Source of the DNA: Lepidurus packardi
Taxonomy: Eukaryota; Arthropoda; Branchiopoda; Notostraca; Triopsidae
Assembly (NCBI GenBank): GCA_023053545.1
Contig: JAKZAN010000007.1
Coordinates: 4,712,001-4,776,000 of the forward strand
Direction: 5' to 3'
Length of the DNA: 64,000 nt
Shown here: one piece after another, positions 40,900 through 53,500 of the stretch
Numbering within the stretch: the stretch's first letter is position 1
Layout: each line of letters opens with the position of its first letter
Notes under the pieces: model-generated
Seen by the model: only the letters and a program-made list of their open reading frames with translations
What the model was told of the DNA's origin: nothing
Databases searched by the model: none
Made by a program: the position numbers and the translations under genes

Positions 40900-43800
40900 A
40901 TGGTCGTCATGAAGACTGTTTGGATTGGGTTTGTCGTGGCATTCCTACCTTATATTGCAGTTGCAACTTCAGGGTAAACTATTGTACCTTACTACCTACA
41001 TTTCGAAATGGAAATTAAATAGTAAAAGCCGTTTGTACTAAAAACTTTTGTTTATTCCCTTAGAACGTACAGTATAGTTGCGCCCAAAGTTTTGAGACCT
41101 AATATAGATTTCCATGCGTCTGTGAGTTTACACGGGGATGTTGGTGCTACAAACTTTGAAGTGGCCATCGAAGGCAATCAAGATGGTAGTGGACCGTTTC
41201 GAAATGCTCAGTCCGTTCTTCTCGAATCGAATTCAACGCAAGTTGTCAAGTTCCAAAACGGGGAGTTAGGTCCTGGCAAATATAACTTGACCGTGCGGGG
41301 CTCGGGTGGATTGTCGTTCTTTAATTCTACCAAGTTGGAGTACACCCAGAAAAGCTACTCTGTTTTTATCCAAACGGACAAAGCTATCTATAAACCAGGA
41401 CAATTGGTGCAGTTCCGCGTCATTGTGGTCAACACACAGCTCAAGCCTTCCGTGACGGGCTCCCTGGACATTCACGTCACAGACGGCAAAGGCAATCGGG
41501 TCAAACAATGGAACCGAGTTTTTACCAAACAGGGCGTCTTTTCCGGGGAATTACAATTGTCTGATCAACCACTTTTGGGCGATTGGAACATGACTGTCAC
41601 CGTCTTGGGACAAACTTTTACGAAGAGCTTCCAGGTGGCCGAGTACGTCTTGCCCAAGTTCGAGGTCACTATCGATCTTCCACCTTATACAACTTTCACT
41701 GACTCGAACATTGTTGTCACCGTTAAAGCCAAGTAATACGCTTCGAAATTGTATCCTTTTTGCAAGTTATTTCATAATAAAATTATCTTCAGGTACACTT
41801 ATGGCAAGCCTGTTCGAGGAAATGCTACCATAGCGGTGTATCCTGTGTACCGCGTGTCCTACATTCAACCGTTCTTCACGGAGCCTTTGCGCAAGACTGT
41901 GCAATTGAACGGCAAAGCGGATGTAGAATTTAACTTAGCTAAAGAACTAAGGTAAGCTTTAAGTTACATTATATATTGGGGTATGTTACGGTAAAGGGGA
42001 GTAAGTTACAGTATATATTGGGGTTATATTACATATTGTGATGTTGCGGTTAAGTTACAGTATGTATTGGATATGAAATGAAGACACATCTTTGGGTAGG
42101 TTAACGGATGATTTCGAACGAGACATTCGTTTTGATGTGACGGTAATTGAGGCTTTGACGGAACGGAAACAAAACACGAGCTCCACTATGACCATTCATA
42201 AGTACAAGTATAAGATGGAGTTGATTAAAACCTCGGATTCTTTCAAGCCTGGTCTGAAGTACACCGCATTTGTAAGATTTTTTTCAACTTTCAATGTTTG
42301 GGTGTTAATTAATTATACGCTTTGCTAGTTGAAAATAGCGTACCAAGATAATACCCCAGTTCAAGACACCGATACTAGTATTACCGTAAGACACGGCTTT
42401 TCTCATAACCAGGAAGAGTACAACAGCACCCTGTATACCGTCCCTCGCAATGGTATAATCGAATTGAACTTCTACCCTCCTGCTGATGAAAATGTGTTCA
42501 CTTTGGGCATTGAGGTAAACTTGTATTTTCCAAGTCTCCTCTTCTAACTTTTCTGCCCGTAAATTTGTATATAGGCTCAGTACAAAGACTTGATTGAATG
42601 GTTTTCAACGATCAACCGTGCCCAATCTCCCAGCAGTTCCTTCCTGCAGGCTCTTTTGCGCACTGAGAAGCCCACAGTGAATCAAGAGGTCACGATTGAC
42701 GTCAATTCCACACATCCCTTGGACTACTTCATCTACGAAGTCATGGGTCGGGGCAACCTGTTGCTCGCCAAGACTGTCCCGTTACAAGGGCAAAGGTTCC
42801 ATAGCTTTAGCTTTACTTTGCTTTCGGCCATGGCCCCTCTCACTCGCGTCCTGGTCTACTATGCACGTCCTGATGGCGAAGTAGTGGCAGATGCTCTAAA
42901 CTTCGATGTTGATGGCTCCTTCCAGAACTTTGTAGGACAAACCCTTGCTTTCAAAACATTCGTTTTCAAAACTACCTGCTTTAGGCGGAAGTTACTGTTA
43001 ATCGGGATGAAGTCCAGCCTGGCCAAGCAGTTGACGTAAGGGTCAAAACCAAGCCGAACTCTTTCGTGGGCGTTTTAGGGGTGGATCAAAGCGTTCTATT
43101 GCTACGTACTGGGAACGACATCACCAAAGTAAGTTCCATATCTTTCTTCTTCATATACTTACCACAGTAAAAATACTAATACTAATAAGTAAATGATAAG
43201 TTAACTAATTAGTTAACTTGTGTATTAGAATGACGTGTTGGAGGAACTCAAGTCGTACGATTCTGGACGTCGCCCCGATTACACCTCCTGGTTCCCTGAA
43301 GTTCAGCCGCGCTGGTTGTCTTGGTGGCCGGCTTCTTCTACAGCGGGAGCAATTTTTGACGTAAACACTTTTTTTTTAAAAATTAACACAGGTAAAATTG
43401 CTTAACCTGTGATTGCTTTCACAGGATTCTGGAATGGTTATAATCACAAATGGTTACGTGCATGAACAGACGCCTTTTGGTAAGTAGACTTCTTCTCTTT
43501 ATCACAAAATCAGTTGCCCCGTAAAGATGTGATCAAGAATGTTTCAGTGTTACTTTATATTTATTATTATTATTATTATTTTGTAATGATAGTGCATGCT
43601 AGACTGAAAAGTTAATTTCATTGACCTGACGATGTAGTTTATACTAATTTCACTTGAGGTGCCGTCTGGTTTTAATTTTTCGGGTATTTGTGCATGGGCT
43701 CATGGCAACACGTCAGAATCTGTTTTCGACGTTTTTGGGGTTAGCTTAGACTGCTCTTATGAGGGAGACGCTAACTATTTTGCTGCTCCTGAGAAATCTG

Positions 43801-46800
43801 GTTCAATGGACTCTGATTCAAACGCGAACGTCTTGAGAACTAGGAAATATCTTCCCGAGGTGTTTCTTTGGGAGTCTCAGTAACAGGGTAATTCAAAGGC
43901 TTTACTGGTACTGCACTGTCTATCTTTCATGATCTGTGGACTTTTGTTTATGTTCTCCTTTTTCTTGTGGCGTAATCGGGTGTCGGTGTGCTCAACGGCT
44001 TAGCTCTCATTTGTTTGCTAAATGTGCATTTAACTCACCGTATTAACCTCCATGGCATTAGTCTATTATCGATCGGCCATCGATAGTGATGTTATGTTGG
44101 ACGCCATCGCGGCCGAACCACGCCCTGTCTATTTGCCCGGGCCAGTCGGAGTAGACAGTCAAGATTTCGGCCAGATACGTCTACGTCAGCGCTTCCCCGA
44201 AACTTGGCTTTGGGAAGAGAAACCGGCCGAGTATAACCACCCCAATACTAAACTCGAGCAGTTGGTGCTAAGCATGGGTTGTGGGCCTGCTCCCTTGGAA
44301 TCTTCCAGTTTTTGCACCCTTAGATTGGCTTGTGAAAAGGGATTGGTTTGATGCAGGAAAATTGGGGCAGTCAAAGCTTTTAACATTCATATTGGGGATT
44401 TTGTACCCTTTAGTCTTCTATAGATCCATCTTGCGAACATCTCTTGACGATGAAAGGGATGGTACTGCTGATGCATTCGCTCCTTTGCCCGAATCTTCGT
44501 CAGAATCGGGGTTTCGAGTTAGGCGCAATTTTCCTGAAACGTGGTTCTGGGAAAGTCGCGAGGCCGAGTACTTTTCCTTAACTTATTTACCTTGCATGTT
44601 GCCCGCAATTTCTACGAAACCTGCACGTACATTGACGCAATATTTGCGAACCAAATGCTTCTTCTATGTTAATTAGTAATCGGTTACACTTTCCTACACA
44701 AGCATTGTTGGCCTAGTGAGTAGACGAAACTAGTCGCATTCCTCTTAACACGCTTTGTTGCTTTAGCTTGGTTCCGATCCATGGATAGTGCCACGCCCAT
44801 ATTCCCTGCTATGCAGTCTTTACCTGTACTTGATGATTCGCCAGATGCATTGTCAGTAACTGGTTCTTCCAAGTCTGTCAGACTGAGACACCGATTTCCC
44901 GAAACGTGGCTCTGGCTTAACAATACGGCAAAGTATTGACTTTCTTGAGTAACTTTAGTTTTGAAAACAGGGTTGGGTTTACCTTATCTTCCTAACTCAA
45001 TTTCCATAGTGTATAGGTTTACGGTTGATCCAGCTATATACATAACTACTGTGACTCTTCCTAACTCAACTAAAAGACTCGACCGAATGACGCCACTCAA
45101 TTTTTCCCTCTTATGCCGTGACGCTTATTTTTATGAATGTCGTGATTGTTTCGTCTTAAAATTATATTTTCCTATCCATTCCTGGAATTTCCCTTTGCTC
45201 AGGCCGCTTTACTACCGTTGCACCACGCCCAGCGGCCGCCAACCGGCCTACCAATCAACCCCAACCTGCATTTGGTGTATCCACCGTTCGTGTAGACCGA
45301 GGTCCAGCTCTTACTTTACGGCCTTTAATAAGACCACCTCTTGCTGGGCCTTACGCCTTCTCTCGAATTCCTCAACCCGTCGACGACAACCCGAAAGTGT
45401 ACTTACTAAGAGATCCACCCCCAACTTGGATCTTCGCCACTAAAGAGGCCGGGTACTTGTTTCCCAACTTCCTATCTACTTTCGTGGCTTTCTGGGATAT
45501 TTCTTTCCCCACACTAAAATGAAAATCGCTGGCTAAACACAGCCCATTTAATCAGCCTTATTAAGCGTTTACTGACCATTTAACGACAAATTACCGTATG
45601 CGAACCGAAAACAGCTCTTAGGCATCTGTCCTTCTTTAAATGGAATTTCTAATGCTGACGCGGGACTAGGTGATAGTTTACCATTCAACCTTAATAGTAA
45701 AGGTTCAAAGCAGAAGAAAAGCTAACCAGCGAGTTCTGTAACTCTTAAGTAGAAAGTTGTCCATTTTTTTGGCACATTAATAGTCATATGGACGTGATTT
45801 ATGTAGTGCAATGGCGCAGCTTGGACGCAATGCCCGTGGATTCCAATCTTCCTGTAGCCTACAGTCATCCAACAGGGGCGGAAATGGAGTCTATCGACAC
45901 CGGCATTAGAGTTCGCACTCTATTTCCCGAAGTGTGGCTCTTTAGTGGGTCTTTGGCGGGGTATTTATTGCTAACCAATCACAGCCTCTGCTTATACCAA
46001 AGAAACCCTACTGACGACGCTGCTTAGAATTTGGGTTGACTTATCTGACTTCACGACGCTTTTGTGTTTGTAATTGGTTTTGGGTCTTATGGGGATTTGA
46101 ATTTCAATGGCGCCACGCAAATTTGCACGAGGCTTTTTGGGTAAAAAGCTTGGCGTTGCATGTCGGTGTATGGGTTTCGAAACGTTAAGGTAAGGGTTTA
46201 AAATTAACCTAGCTTTCGTTTTACTTATCTAGCAATGATGGAACTGCCCTATTCATCAAAGAAGCTCCAGACACTATTACCTCCTGGGTTGTTACGGCCT
46301 TTGCATTAGATTCCTTCCATGGATTGGGAATTTCTGAACAACCAGCAAGAATGCAAGTCTTCCGCCCTTTCTTCATCCAGTTAAACTTACCGTACTCGGT
46401 GATCCGCGGAGAAGCTGTAGCCGTCCAAGCCGTGGTATTTAATTACATGAAAAAGGACGTTACTGCTGAAGTCACTTTAGAGAGCACGGGTGACTTTGAG
46501 TTTCTTGGATCCGCCTGGCAGGATAATGAGATTTCCAGTATGTTTTTTTATTTATTTTCTTTTTATGGAAATTGGGCGTGTGAATTACATTGTTTGGGTT
46601 TTCTTGCTCTCTCTAGACGAAGAGTTATTCAGGAAAAAGTCCGTGTTTGTGAAAGCGCAAGACGGTTCCCCAGTATCCTTCTTAATCAGACCAAAGACAA
46701 TTGGTAACTTGGACATAAAAATGAAGGCCACCAGTCCATCAGCTGGCGACGCCCTGGTGCGCCAATTGCTAGTCAAGGTAAGCAATTCTTCCTTTTATGT

Positions 46801-49307
46801 CTTGGGTGTTTTCCAACTTACAGTAAGGCCACGGAGAACTGCAAGTAGGTGATCATTTTTGTCAAAAGATGGCACTGATGTCATGTGATGAGAATGCAGC
46901 AACTTTAAACAAAACCTTATAAGAAATTTGACGAAATTTATATGGTTATTTTTCTTTTATATTTTTGTTTAAAGTTACTGCATTCTCGTGATATAGGGGG
47001 TGTGATATCAATGACATCTGATGACAAAAATTATCAACTACGTTCACCGTGGCCTTCAGATAGTCCAAGGGTCTGAAGAGCTTCCCACTTATAGTACTTT
47101 TGTTTTTCTTGTTTTTAGGCGGAGGGAGAAGCCATTTATCACAATAAAGCAATTTTACTTGACATGCGGAGTTCGCGAACGTTTACGCAAAATGTAACCA
47201 TTGCCATGCCGAAGAATGCAGTACCAGGCTCACAATTTGTGGAATTTTCAGCCATTGCCGACATTATGGGTCCTAGTATAAACAACTTGGATCAGCTACT
47301 GCGCATGCCGTTCGGATGCGGGGAACAAAACATGCTACTCTTCGTACCCAATATTGTAGCCACTGAATATTTGAAAAATACCGGACAGCTTACCGAAGCG
47401 GTCAGAGCCAAGGCTCTCCGGTTCATCGAAACTGGCTACCAACGAGAATTAACCTACCGTCGCGAAGACGGATCTTTCAGTGCGTTTGGCAAGTCGGATC
47501 CATCGGGCAGCACTTGGTTAACCGCGTTTGTAGCGCGCTCCTTCTACCAAGCCTTACCTCATATTCCTATCGAAGAATCGGTCATCAACGACGCCTTGCT
47601 GTGGCTATCTTCGAACCAGCATTCCAATGGCAGCTTCCCCGAAGTCGGCAAAGTGTCGCACTCGGATATGCAGGGAGGATCGGGCAAAGGTGTGCCGTTG
47701 ACAGCTTACACATTACTCGCCTTTCTGGAAAACAAGAACAGGAGCAAGTTCACAAATCCGATCAACAAAGCCATCGATTTCTTGGCCAAGGAATTGCCGG
47801 GCATCACAGATTCTTATACCTTAGCTGTAGTAACCTACGCTTTACATTTATCTGAGCATCCCTCGAGGAATCAAGCCTTTGACAAGCTGGATGCCATGGC
47901 TAATTCCACCGATGGCTTCAAGTTTTGGTTCAAGCCCAACCCAGAGTCCCTAACCAAAAACCCCTTTGCTTCGGAACCCCGTTCCGTAGACGTGGAAATG
48001 ACTGCGTACGCCTTGCTAACTTATCTACAGAGAGGTTTAGTTTCCGAAGCTCTACCCATTATGAGATGGATGGTGGCTCAGAGGAATTCCAACGGAGGAT
48101 TTGCTTCAACCCAGGATACTGTCATCGGCATTTATGCCTTAGCCAAACTGGCGGAGAAAATCACGGTTCCCAATACCAATATTGAAGTCAAAATTAAATA
48201 CAACGAAGGAGTAGAGACGGTTAACCTCAAACGAGAAAATGCCATGGTCCTGCAGAAATTTAAGGTAGGAAATTGAAGTCATCTGATTTATTATAATTCC
48301 ATAATTAAGTTTCAAGTATTTTTCTTTATATATTATAATTCTCGATATTTTATTTTTATATATATATATATATTAGTATATTTTTATTTACATTTATATA
48401 TTTTTATTATCAAATTATAAGTGTATTTTTTTAAATTCAATTAAAAGTATTCTTGTGATGGGTTTAGTTGCCTCGGAGGACAACTGACATCACCATTGAA
48501 GCCAGTGGGAGTGGTTTCGCCATTTTACAGGTTTCCCATGGCTACAACCTGAACGTGACTGGCGAATGGCCGCTTTTCACTTTGGATCCACAACTTTTTA
48601 AGAATGCTGACCGAAATCGTATGCAACTTACCATCTGCTCAAGGTAATGTCAACTTTTTCATTGAGAAATGTTCATAACGGATTCCCCTCCCCGTTCAGT
48701 TTCGTAGGCGAGGAAAGTAATATGGCAGTCATGGAAGTCACGCTACCGTCAGGTTACGTGATGGATGTTGATTCCTTACCGAGTTTGAAAGCGTATAAAG
48801 ATGTCAAGCGGGTGGAAACGAAGGACGGTGGTACAGGTGTGATGCTGTATTTCGACAAAGTAAGCTTTTAATTCCAAAGCAGCTAATTACGAAAATGTAA
48901 ATTGTTTGGTTTCATAGATGACGAGGCAAACGGTCTGCCCTGCTATCCTGGCCCAGAGGATATTCAAAGTTGCTGAGCAACGTAAAGTACCGGTCGTCAT
49001 GTACGATTACTATGATCGATGTAAGTTTATCTTATTATTCAAGTGAAAAGCAGAACTAATTCTCGCTGTAGCACGACGCGCACGTGTGTTTTATGAGCCG
49101 ATTAAAGCTGACGTTTGTGATATTTGCCATGGCCCAGAATGCAAAACACAATGTGCTTCCAGAGAAGGCTGGACCGCAGAGGAGGAAGATGGGAAGGGAT
49201 GGGGTACGTTGGAACCCACAAGCCTAACTACGAGTGGACATCGGTCTCTACCTACCCTTCTAACTGTAATACTTTCGGGTTTATTGAGTGCGCTTTTACT
49301 GTTGTAA
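40900..49307 (+). CDS. Tep: Thioester-containing protein (insect TEP/CD109 type) with alternative variable-region exons
   Basis: A secreted or surface opsonin-like protein of the alpha-2-macroglobulin/complement family. Constant exons: 40900-40973, 41064-41732, 41793-41951, 42100-42271, 42329-42514, 42575-42931, 42985-43128, 43229-43360, 43425-43479, one of six cassettes (43717-45960), then 46233-46537, 46617-46777, 47119-48264, 48468-48643, 48700-48859, 48918-49020, 49072-49307. With cassette b: 4404 nt, 1467 aa. Visible parts: a signal peptide (VWIGFVVAFLPYIAVATSG), macroglobulin domains with IQTDKAIYKPGQ and EYVLPKFEV, the variable region, DTITSWVVTAFALD, an intact thioester GCGEQN at about residues 927-932, the alpha-alpha barrel (DGSFSAFGKSDPSGSTWLTA), and the receptor-binding-like domain. 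It ends with a Cys-rich stretch (CDICHGPECKTQC) and a hydrophobic tail (LLTVILSGLLSALLLL), suggesting GPI anchoring as in CD109. Confidence 0.95.
43717..43879 (+). CDS. TEP variable cassette a
   Basis: 53 internal codons, entry phase 1 and exit phase 2. It is acidic and ends with TRKYLPEVFLWES before the donor CA|GTAACA. The acceptor (CACGTCAG) has a weak pyrimidine tract, so its left edge is the least certain of the six. Confidence 0.6.
44062..44230 (+). CDS. TEP variable cassette b
   Basis: Starts YYRSAIDS, ends RLRQRFPETWLWEEKPA before donor GA|GTATAA. Entry phase 1, exit phase 2. Acceptor GGCATTAG follows a pyrimidine-rich stretch. It has the canonical insect TEP ending FPETWLW. Confidence 0.85.
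44414..44567 (+). CDS. TEP variable cassette c
   Basis: Starts FYRSILRTS, ends RVRRNFPETWFWESREA before donor GA|GTACTT. Entry phase 1, exit phase 2. Acceptor TACCCTTTAG. Confidence 0.85.
44767..44932 (+). CDS. TEP variable cassette d
   Basis: Starts WFRSMDSATP, ends RLRHRFPETWLWLNNTA before donor AA|GTATTG. Entry phase 1, exit phase 2. Acceptor TTGCTTTAG. Confidence 0.83.
45203..45452 (+). CDS. TEP variable cassette e (long, proline-rich)
   Basis: Starts RFTTVAPRPAAANRP, continues proline-rich, ends LLRDPPPTWIFATKEA before donor GG|GTACTT. At 250 nt it is about 80 nt longer than the others and lacks FPE, but it keeps TW+aromatic. Entry phase 1, exit phase 2. Acceptor CCCTTTGCTCAG is strong. 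Confidence 0.75.
45807..45960 (+). CDS. TEP variable cassette f
   Basis: Starts QWRSLDAMPVDS, ends RVRTLFPEVWLFSGSLA before donor GG|GTATTT. Entry phase 1, exit phase 2. Acceptor GATTTATGTAG. It is the cassette nearest the downstream constant exon at 46233. Confidence 0.83.
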
Positions 49308-50579: not shown

Positions 50580-53500
50580 CTACAAGGAGGAAAAATCTAT
50601 TAAAATACTGGAACATAAATTAGCTGCAAGAAACTTTACCTCCGTTCTTGGCACTTGCTTGAATGTGCCTGATGTAACGCTTCGAAAGCTTCCTGTCATG
50701 GTTATTGTGGAACTTAAGTATCCGAACAGATCAGGAGACAATGGAGACATAGGCGTCCCAGAATCCACTGACATAGTGGTAATGGAACTGTCAGACCTTC
50801 CCACTCTTCTATGGGCATTATTAACATCTGTTTCGTCGAAGCTACTCGGTAGATCTGCAATGATGCCAGATTCTAAACACCCAGAAAATACAGTTATTAC
50901 TGCCAGTACAAAGATTTGTTCGATATGGGGATTTACCGTTCGAACATTGGCTTTGATTAGTAGAGCGATTGGCTCTGGGACTATCCACCGGATCAAAAGC
51001 CAGGTTCAAAGCTCCAATATTCGGGTTTACGCCTGAAGAACCCGAACTACTTCCTGAACTGGAGCTTACTGAGATTATGGAATGAGGTCTTTTACTATGA
51101 CGTCCATCGCTGAGGTTCACTGACGTGATTGACTGCCGAAATCGGGGAGCTGGTTAAACAAAGACCGACAGTTAATTGACAGTTAAGAATTAATTGACGT
51201 TTTTGAAAGTTTTCTAGACTTACTTGTACCTTTGCAAAGCTGGCTGTAGCTTATGGATCTGTCGTTAATTTGGTCCTGACTGGGCCGTATATCTAAACAA
51301 GGTTTGCTGCCAACTCCCATTTCTACCATCTCTGCCAAACGTAACTCTGTCCAAATTTAAACACACAAGAATAAATACCAAAAGAAAACTGAAAGAAAGA
51401 AACTAAGAAAGAAAGAAAGAAAGAAAGAAAAGGATTATGTTAATTGTTTCATACCTCGATTGCGAAACGCTTGCTTCCATAATAGCCTGGACAAATCCTC
51501 AACCCAGACATCCTTGGTTTCGGGAGACATAGATTGCAATAGAAACAAGTCGTTCAGTTTGCGCTTGCGGAACCAAATCTCAAACTTGGTCGTAGATTCG
51601 CCCACTTGAGCCGTCATTCCGATATCGCTTATTTTCATGCTATGCTTGTAGATGTAAATATCCAAGTTCTGCGAAGCAATTCTCATTTGAATAAACCCGC
51701 TCACTCCTATAACTTCCAAAATAGGTATTACCTTGCGCTCAGGGTCTCGTTTGGCTTTGCTGAACAGTACAAGGTCTTCAAATAAGAAAACATGACGTAA
51801 ACCCTTCTTGCGCCCTTGCCATACCAAGAATTCGTTTTGGCGTAGCAGCCTTCCTTGTTCTTTCACATTAATCTGAAACCAGAAACAACAACAAAATATT
51901 AGTGCCGGATTAAAATAAAAATTACTATAAAAATTCGTACGTCGCAATCGCGAAGCGAGTCCATCGCAAGCAAATCGTTGCCATGCCGTAACTGAAATCG
52001 CACCATTTGCTCAGCCGCCAACAAGTCTGGATATTCGGGTTCCTTTTCGTCGCTTTCTTTCAGCAGCTGCTTTAGCAATAACGCGTACTTTCCCATTCGT
52101 TGCACCGGCTTCAATAAGTAGCTTGCCACGTCCATCTTATCCCCTAACTCCATTTGTTTTGGCTGTTTAAAAAAAAAGAAAACTTAACCTAAGCTCGAGA
52201 AGATATATAGTTGAAGAAACTTACCCTGAAGAACGCTGTGCCATATTCCGATAACAAGGTATCCGACTTGGGCTTATTTTTGTTGTATAACGCGTATAAA
52301 TAGAATTGTTGCTCCTAATGACAAAAATGTTACACAAATCTGAATTACATTGAAACTAGTAATTTACGTGTCTTAGGAAGCACTGCCCCACTAAAAACGG
52401 CATACTTTCGCACATTTCGAGTTCTTTCAGGAAGTAATGACTATGGAATTCGTGAATCTTCTCCAGGTTGCCAAAAATAACGTTGCGCTTCCCTCGCAAA
52501 GCTTGGGGAATGTCTTCTCGCGATAACTCTGGGATGTAACTTTCAATAATGTACTCGAGAGAGCGAACATAATCCCTTTCTGTGTGAATCATTTCTCTCA
52601 TGATGAGCAGCAATGTTCTATACGAGTTACAAAAAAGAAATTAAAATCCGCCTGGCTTTTTGTTATCGAAAAAAAGGGCGCTATTTACTTTTGAGTTTTA
52701 ATTTGTTGCTCGTTAAGGCCTGCCTCTTCCATCTCAGCAAGGGGCAGAGATAAATTGAGGTTGGACGCCCGCGAATAAAGGTGACTGTTCACCGGAATAG
52801 GTGATACAGGGGTACTAGGTATGTTGGTGGGCTCTGGAGCACCTTCAGTATCCGTTGGCCGTCCGTCAGAATCTCCTTCAGGGTCTTCGGCGTCTTCCTG
52901 ATCTTCACGATCATTATCTCCCTGCGCAGACGGAGACCCTACGGAGGCACCAGAATCTTCGGTCTCGCCCAAACTAAAAACAGCGAAGAATGTATTCATT
53001 AGAAAATTGAAATTTTCTCGGAACTATTTTTATTGGGAGAAAAATTTTCCCTTACCTTTGAGAGCTAGACATGGGTGCACTTTTCTCCGGGGTCTCGCTA
53101 CCCGTCGAAGATACGCTATCTTGATGTTGCAAACGAGGTTTCGTCGCCGGTGGTTCGTAGGACAGGGACCGAGCTAAGAGATTGGCTTTGTTTGCAAAAT
53201 TGCCGCCATACGATAATCTCCCATGGGAGATTCCCATATTGCTTAAATTCTGCGGAACGGTAGTACAGCGTTTGGTCATTTCGTTAGAACTGCAACTAAC
53301 TGAACTCTGTCCCGACGAAGAGCTAGACGAAGTCGTTGTGGATGTAGAAGACGAGGATTTCGAAGAGGCAAAACTTTGTACGGATGTTCTCGAAGTGTAG
53401 ACCAAACTACCTCGCGTAATTGGCGATACGCAACTTTTGTCCACTTCATCACGACTGATGGGACTTGTCATCTCAGCGCTCGAACACGAGCAACTTGTGT

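Follow-up and report, generated by a model that had tools for sequence, protein, structure and literature searches.

A stretch of 64,000 nucleotides (nt) from Lepidurus packardi (assembly GCA_023053545.1, contig JAKZAN010000007.1, positions 4,712,001 to 4,776,000), here referred to as the window, harbors on its plus strand a complement-like gene of the thioester-containing protein (TEP)/CD109 type, which very probably contains a tandem-duplicated cluster of mutually exclusive bait exons. The coding part of this gene extends from position 40900 to 49307 and comprises 16 constant coding exons flanking an array of six candidate exons (cassettes 1 to 6), and the best reading of this array is that about four to six isoforms could be produced from it. 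The original prediction of a TEP gene with alternative cassettes in its bait-like region, arranged in a frame logic which permits exactly one cassette, is supported by the analysis described below, with qualifications concerning the number of cassettes, the start of cassette 1, and the nature of the resulting variants.

The cassettes, all on the plus strand, are located at positions 43717 to 43879 (cassette 1, 163 nt, with the motif LPEVFLW), 44062 to 44230 (cassette 2, 169 nt, from YYRS to RLRQRFPETWLWEEKPA), 44414 to 44567 (cassette 3, 154 nt, from FYRS to RVRRNFPETWFWESREA), 44767 to 44932 (cassette 4, 166 nt, from WFRS to RLRHRFPETWLWLNNTA), 45203 to 45452 (the divergent cassette 5, 250 nt and 82 codons, proline/arginine-rich and ending in PPPTWIFATKEA), and 45807 to 45960 (cassette 6, 154 nt, from QWRS to RVRTLFPEVWLFSGSLA). 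Each is preceded by AG and followed by GT, is entered in phase 1 and left in phase 2, has a length of 1 mod 3, and is without a stop in the required frame, which is the sole stop-free frame in five of the six (cassette 3 possesses a second open frame). The adjoining constant exons, which had been correctly predicted, end at 43479 in phase 1 and start at 46233 in phase 2. When all 64 ordered subsets of cassettes were joined in silico, the natural stop was reached by the six single-cassette joins only, while the 58 others terminated early, at codon 674 for the join without a cassette and at codons 706 to 785 for joins of two to six cassettes. The earlier claim that a direct joining of two cassettes breaks the frame thus applies to all 15 ordered pairs, and joins other than singles give no full-length protein.

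Because the boundaries of the cassettes had been picked with an open frame as the criterion, the lack of stops by itself carries little weight, and homology represents a better test. Profiles built from three cassettes were applied to the 1,634 six-frame open reading frames (ORFs) of at least 25 codons in the window, among which they recovered the held-out fourth member of the set formed by cassettes 2, 3, 4, and 6 with E-values of 1.5e-8, 1.2e-6, 4.1e-8, and 4.2e-5, respectively, a result which points clearly to the homology of these four cassettes to each other. Cassette 1 was the next-ranked match in all five profile runs (E-values of 0.00088 to 0.0068) and is a probable member of the array. 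A search for a seventh cassette among the same ORFs, using a four-cassette profile, placed only ORFs holding cassettes 1 to 4 and 6 above the inclusion threshold. The residues which these cassettes share are spelled by differing codons, the RS pair being encoded by CGA TCG, AGA TCC, CGA TCC, and CGC AGC. When 15 conserved codons were compared among cassettes 2, 3, 4, and 6, the pooled proportion of nonsynonymous differences (pN) was 0.31, compared to a synonymous proportion (pS) of 0.69 (pN/pS, 0.45, or 0.51 when cassette 1 was added), values which derive from a stretch picked for its conservation and in which pS is near saturation.

A profile derived from five paralogue bait exons of the same genome (a 108.6-Mb assembly of 344 contigs, in which the window lies on contig C6) returned cassettes 4, 2, 3, 1, and 6 as the top five of the 1,634 ORFs, with E-values of 9.3e-6, 1.8e-4, 0.0071, 0.068, and 0.12, respectively; cassette 5 was absent from the matches listed among these window ORFs. 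This test is not fully independent, since the motif by which the paralogue exons were located had been modeled on the cassettes, and the sequences used were parts of open frames which may hold some intron residues (one of the two exons of stretch L033 was included). Clusters of mutually exclusive exons are described as sharing similar length, the same phase and splice-site type, and sequence homology (PMC3228551). By that description, cassettes 1 to 4 and 6 qualify, the homology of cassette 1 being weak, whereas cassette 5 fits in phase and splice sites and fails in length and homology. The statement that most cassettes begin with an aromatic-RS motif is accurate for four of the six (cassettes 2, 3, 4, and 6), and the strict FPE(T/V)W(L/F)(W/F) motif is likewise present in four, with LPEVFLW and PPPTWIF in its place in cassettes 1 and 5, respectively. 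Mean codon log-odds were 0.14 to 0.68 bits per codon for the cassettes, whereas the constant exons scored 0.50 and 0.48 and the introns -0.81, these comparison sets being the very exons and introns of the gene on which the score was trained; the required frame was the best scoring of the three in all six cassettes.

Nine constant exons upstream of the array (40900 to 40973, 41064 to 41732, 41793 to 41951, 42100 to 42271, 42329 to 42514, 42575 to 42931, 42985 to 43128, 43229 to 43360, and 43425 to 43479, plus strand) encode a hydrophobic start, followed by the MG2, MG3, and A2M_BRD domains, where the start codon at 40900 is our choice. The seven downstream constant exons (46233 to 46537, 46617 to 46777, 47119 to 48264, 48468 to 48643, 48700 to 48859, 48918 to 49020, and 49072 to 49307, plus strand) specify the A2M domain, TED, a receptor-binding domain, a Cys-rich tail, and a hydrophobic C terminus. 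With any single cassette, the predicted protein has 1,462 to 1,494 residues and no internal stop. The Pfam domains MG2, MG3, A2M_BRD, A2M, TED, and A2M_recep were detected in this order, all above their curated cutoffs, which assigns the predicted product to the thioester-containing protein/alpha-2-macroglobulin superfamily. The TED region, encoded by the downstream constant exons, contains the thioester motif GCGEQ (as FGCGEQNM), and a motif scan located in it SHSDMQGG, which we take to be the catalytic histidine site. The closest solved proteins were CD109 (8s3o; E-value of 2.1e-230) and TEP1 (4lnv, presumably from Anopheles; E-value of 2.6e-203), followed by A2ML1, A2M, and C3 among the best 60 of 80 phmmer matches, a ranking which would place the window protein with the insect-type TEP/CD109 group rather than with A2M or C3. 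The last exon (49072 to 49307) encodes a Cys-rich stretch and then a hydrophobic tail (SLPTLLTVILSGLLSALLLL) which resembles a glycosylphosphatidylinositol (GPI) anchor signal; CD109 has a GPI anchor.

The cassette begins at residue 650 of the predicted protein, after Pfam A2M_BRD (residues 448 to 579), and extends into the first part of Pfam A2M (residues 697 to 788). When the protein was aligned to CD109, the cassette coincided with a poorly alignable stretch, which we take to be the CD109 bait region, followed by the FPETWIW segment. Each cassette is composed of a variable stretch (with a core of about 28 to 60 residues) and a conserved segment leading into FPETWLW (RxRxxFPETWLW). The bait cores of cassettes 1 to 4 and 6 are acidic (net charge of -3 to -5), that of cassette 6 being without lysine or arginine, and the core of cassette 5 is basic (+5, with 13 prolines and eight lysine or arginine residues). 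According to the published accounts, the bait of A2M can be replaced wholesale, with the inserted substrate sequences deciding which protease acts as the trigger (PMC8267569), and the end of the bait threads a channel from which its retraction triggers activation (PMC9352918). Viewed in this way, the array appears to duplicate the bait and the channel plug as one unit.

The strengths of the splice sites were assessed with a matrix built from the 15 constitutive introns of the gene. The donors of cassettes 1 to 6 score 1.1, 1.3, -1.8, 3.2, -0.7, and 1.9, respectively (mean, 0.8), significantly below the constitutive donors, which average 6.6 (Mann-Whitney P of 0.0017), and weak donors are expected of alternative exons; one constitutive donor, at 46537, scores -2.8 and ranks below every cassette donor. 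The acceptor scores range from 8.8 (cassette 4) down to -11.6 (cassette 1). Higher-scoring acceptors which are in phase and open are present at 44324 (7.7) for cassette 3 and at 45858 (9.2) for cassette 6, and the 5′ ends of these two cassettes are, therefore, not certain; the aromatic-RS codons with which the cassettes open at 44414 and 45807, matching those of cassettes 2 and 4, favor the acceptors chosen in the original prediction. Of the donor-like sites in the array region, the one at 46190 scores highest (10.4); it is located in the last intron, 43 bases 5′ of the acceptor at 46233, with no recognized exon, and is possibly a decoy.

Several observations weigh against a fully functional cluster of six bait exons, some of which concern cassettes 1 and 5. 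The acceptor of cassette 1 at 43717 ranks 119th of 126 AGs with its score of -11.6, and cassette 5, which lacks both the RS start and FPETW, was never significant in the profile runs against the 1,634 window ORFs (best E-value, 1.2). It is conceivable, at somewhat below even chances, that the array is partly dead, with use confined to two to four cassettes and with cassette 1, cassette 5, or both representing copies in decay or open stretches of unrelated origin, a situation which would be compatible with mutually exclusive use of the remainder. For cassette 1, this possibility is countered by its recurrence as the next-best profile match and by an alternative acceptor at 43750, which is in phase, open, and scores -1.4; this is considered more likely to be the true acceptor, and the 5′ boundary of cassette 1 is uncertain. 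Cassette 5 is defended by its open length, which at the stop frequency of the neighboring introns has a probability of about 0.0065 for 82 codons, by a coding score of 0.53 bits per codon, no lower than that of the constant exons, by a fair acceptor (rank 11 of 126), and by the sequence GAGGCCGRGTACTT across its donor, which fits exactly a 14-base pattern shared with cassette 3. With two mismatches allowed, this pattern, chosen after both sites had been seen, has three matches in the window, compared to 0.37 expected, and one of 100 shuffles reached as many. None of the cassettes contains an in-frame stop. Support for the six cassettes originally proposed is, accordingly, strong for four, moderate for cassette 1, and weak for cassette 5, and six represents an upper estimate.

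The wide variation in splice-site scores, in an array known here from genomic sequence, would also suit a single default exon accompanied by pseudo-exons left by tandem duplication, an explanation which we consider very improbable in view of the amino acids conserved at synonymously saturated codons in several cassettes and of the preservation of phase and absence of stops in all of them. The frame logic would also be compatible with mis-joined transcripts being made and then destroyed or with the actual use of no more than one or two cassettes. Furthermore, the Pfam bait region domain ends approximately 70 residues ahead of the cassettes, so the name bait, as applied to them, is based on position and literature. 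Exclusivity might, in addition, be enforced by competing base pairing between introns, as in exon 6 of Dscam, where a docking site pairs with selector sequences; such pairing is established for other exon arrays (PMC8042237, PMC6071210) and would be consistent with a bait-exon cluster. The first and last introns of the array, however, pair with the other introns no better than shuffled sequences do: in eight ungapped tests on this one genome, from which a weak or gapped signal could escape, 297, 293, 282, 289, 273, 140, 226, and 191 of 300 shuffles equaled or exceeded the observed value. Complementary intron elements beyond chance were thus not found by these tests, and regulation of the Dscam type is considered decidedly unlikely. 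Spliceosome incompatibility is without support, as all splice sites are GT-AG, and the inter-cassette introns, at 182 to 354 nt, are of a length that should rule out steric blocking. The one safeguard which the sequence reveals is frame disruption, with wrongly joined transcripts presumably being degraded, and an additional mechanism of regulated choice is likely.

Taking the mutually exclusive cluster as the preferred explanation, to which the gene model, the splice dinucleotides, the phases, and the homology of four to five cassettes contribute as observed features of the genome, we propose that a single cassette would link the constant part ending at 43479 to that starting at 46233, with one cassette used per transcript and wrong joins removed by nonsense-mediated decay. 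Each cassette would contribute a whole bait stretch together with the conserved segment behind the bait, and the choice of bait would set protease specificity, such that a cassette swap should alter which proteases trigger the protein while leaving thioester attachment unchanged. The "recognition variants" originally envisaged would be described more precisely as variants of a protease bait and its following segment; the thioester domain, which would attach to a target, is constant. A more elaborate proposal, in which the product is a membrane-tethered opsonin with interchangeable protease triggers, bait and channel plug having been duplicated together and cassette 5 representing a different class (basic, proline-rich, and with an altered plug), is tentative and rather doubtful.

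Bait-exon arrays of this kind are already known from published descriptions of Drosophila Tep2, Chlamys farreri CfTEP, and Biomphalaria glabrata BgTEP2 and are suspected in Daphnia pulex TEP2. Drosophila melanogaster Tep2, which the original prediction had named as an established case, is described with five variants (PMC2685406, PMC7016707), compared to up to six in the equivalent region here, and an RNA-seq study handles its alternative exons as a mutually exclusive set (PMC11765297). BgTEP2 is reported to possess an array of 12 mutually exclusive exons which spans 30 kb, each exon with conserved residues in its C-terminal part, and CfTEP is reported to possess six such exons and seven isoforms (PMC7016707). 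As described there, both resemble the arrangement proposed for the window gene in having mutually exclusive exons in a highly variable region, although they are molluscan genes with demonstrated expression, the snail array being the larger, whereas the Lepidurus array is predicted from genomic sequence. Six variants are also reported for Fenneropenaeus chinensis A2M-2 (PMC7016707), which differs in being an A2M; the scanned paralogue stretches of the present genome show at most one bait exon per gene. For D. pulex, a survey noted additional putative exons at the same place in TEP2 and, as described therein, Dappu-TEP2 is the only D. pulex TEP of that survey with both a thioester motif and a catalytic histidine (PMC2685406). 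Compared by description, the window gene resembles Dappu-TEP2 in its candidate extra bait exons and in pairing, by motif scan, a thioester motif with a putative histidine site, and, on the basis of gene type and this pairing, is plausibly its counterpart.

Among the fetched TED loci, the window gene is the only one showing both the thioester motif and the histidine-site motif in a six-frame scan which split or variant motifs can escape. The other TED loci include four on contig C46 and three on C4, C1, and C6 which carry GCGEQ with no match to the histidine-site pattern. FPETWLW-type exons, six in total and all with DLYTTE or a sequence very similar to it directly behind them, were found in five of 10 paralogue stretches: one each in L029, L030, L031, and L032 and two in L033, which by their spacing belong to two neighboring genes. 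The pattern scan found no such exon in L034 to L038 and no paralogue gene with more than one bait exon in the 10 stretches, each of 5 to 10 kb, with one of the four C46 copies scanned upstream; a degenerate exon would escape this pattern, which detects five of the six window cassettes and misses cassette 5. As far as scanned, the array would thus characterize the window gene and not its relatives in this genome as a whole.

The C46 cluster was regarded as a possible counterpart of D. pulex TEP4 to TEP7 and was dropped, since its copies carry GCGEQ; a run of A2M domains on contig C5 (378 to 392 kb) is the better candidate. In L033 and C5:378000-392500, four A2M-domain matches lie approximately 4.5 kb apart, with no GCGEQ in the motif scan of the fetched stretches, and this run is probably a tandem MCR-like cluster. 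The A2M-domain match in L038 (C52:74500-79500) lies inside an uninterrupted frame of 1,848 codons, unlike exon-split animal genes, and the contig is possibly bacterial. Within the window, the intron between 46777 and 47119 holds a palindromic repeat element with inverted arms (46825 to 47056), for which at least 85 related matches were counted genome-wide (both strands and the element itself included; 40 of 200 candidates scored), and RhoGEF and PH domain matches adjoin the TEP gene on the minus strand (51435 to 52640). Elsewhere, the genome contains TTAGG repeats and a fragment of a GH7 cellulase, whose best solved match is 4xnn, presumably a Daphnia pulex structure; many positions differ, and the fragment could be a paralogue. 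The repeats and the cellulase are indirect evidence for a crustacean and not an insect source.

The present analysis provides a model of the coding gene and exact junctions, directly countable in RNA data, for a probable crustacean bait-exon array, a kind only suspected in the 2009 Daphnia immune-gene survey. If bait and plug are indeed a duplicated unit, a clear prediction of protease specificity follows for each isoform, and cassette choice would, if the proposal of a surface-bound opsonin is true, let cells determine the proteases, of pathogen or host, to which it responds.

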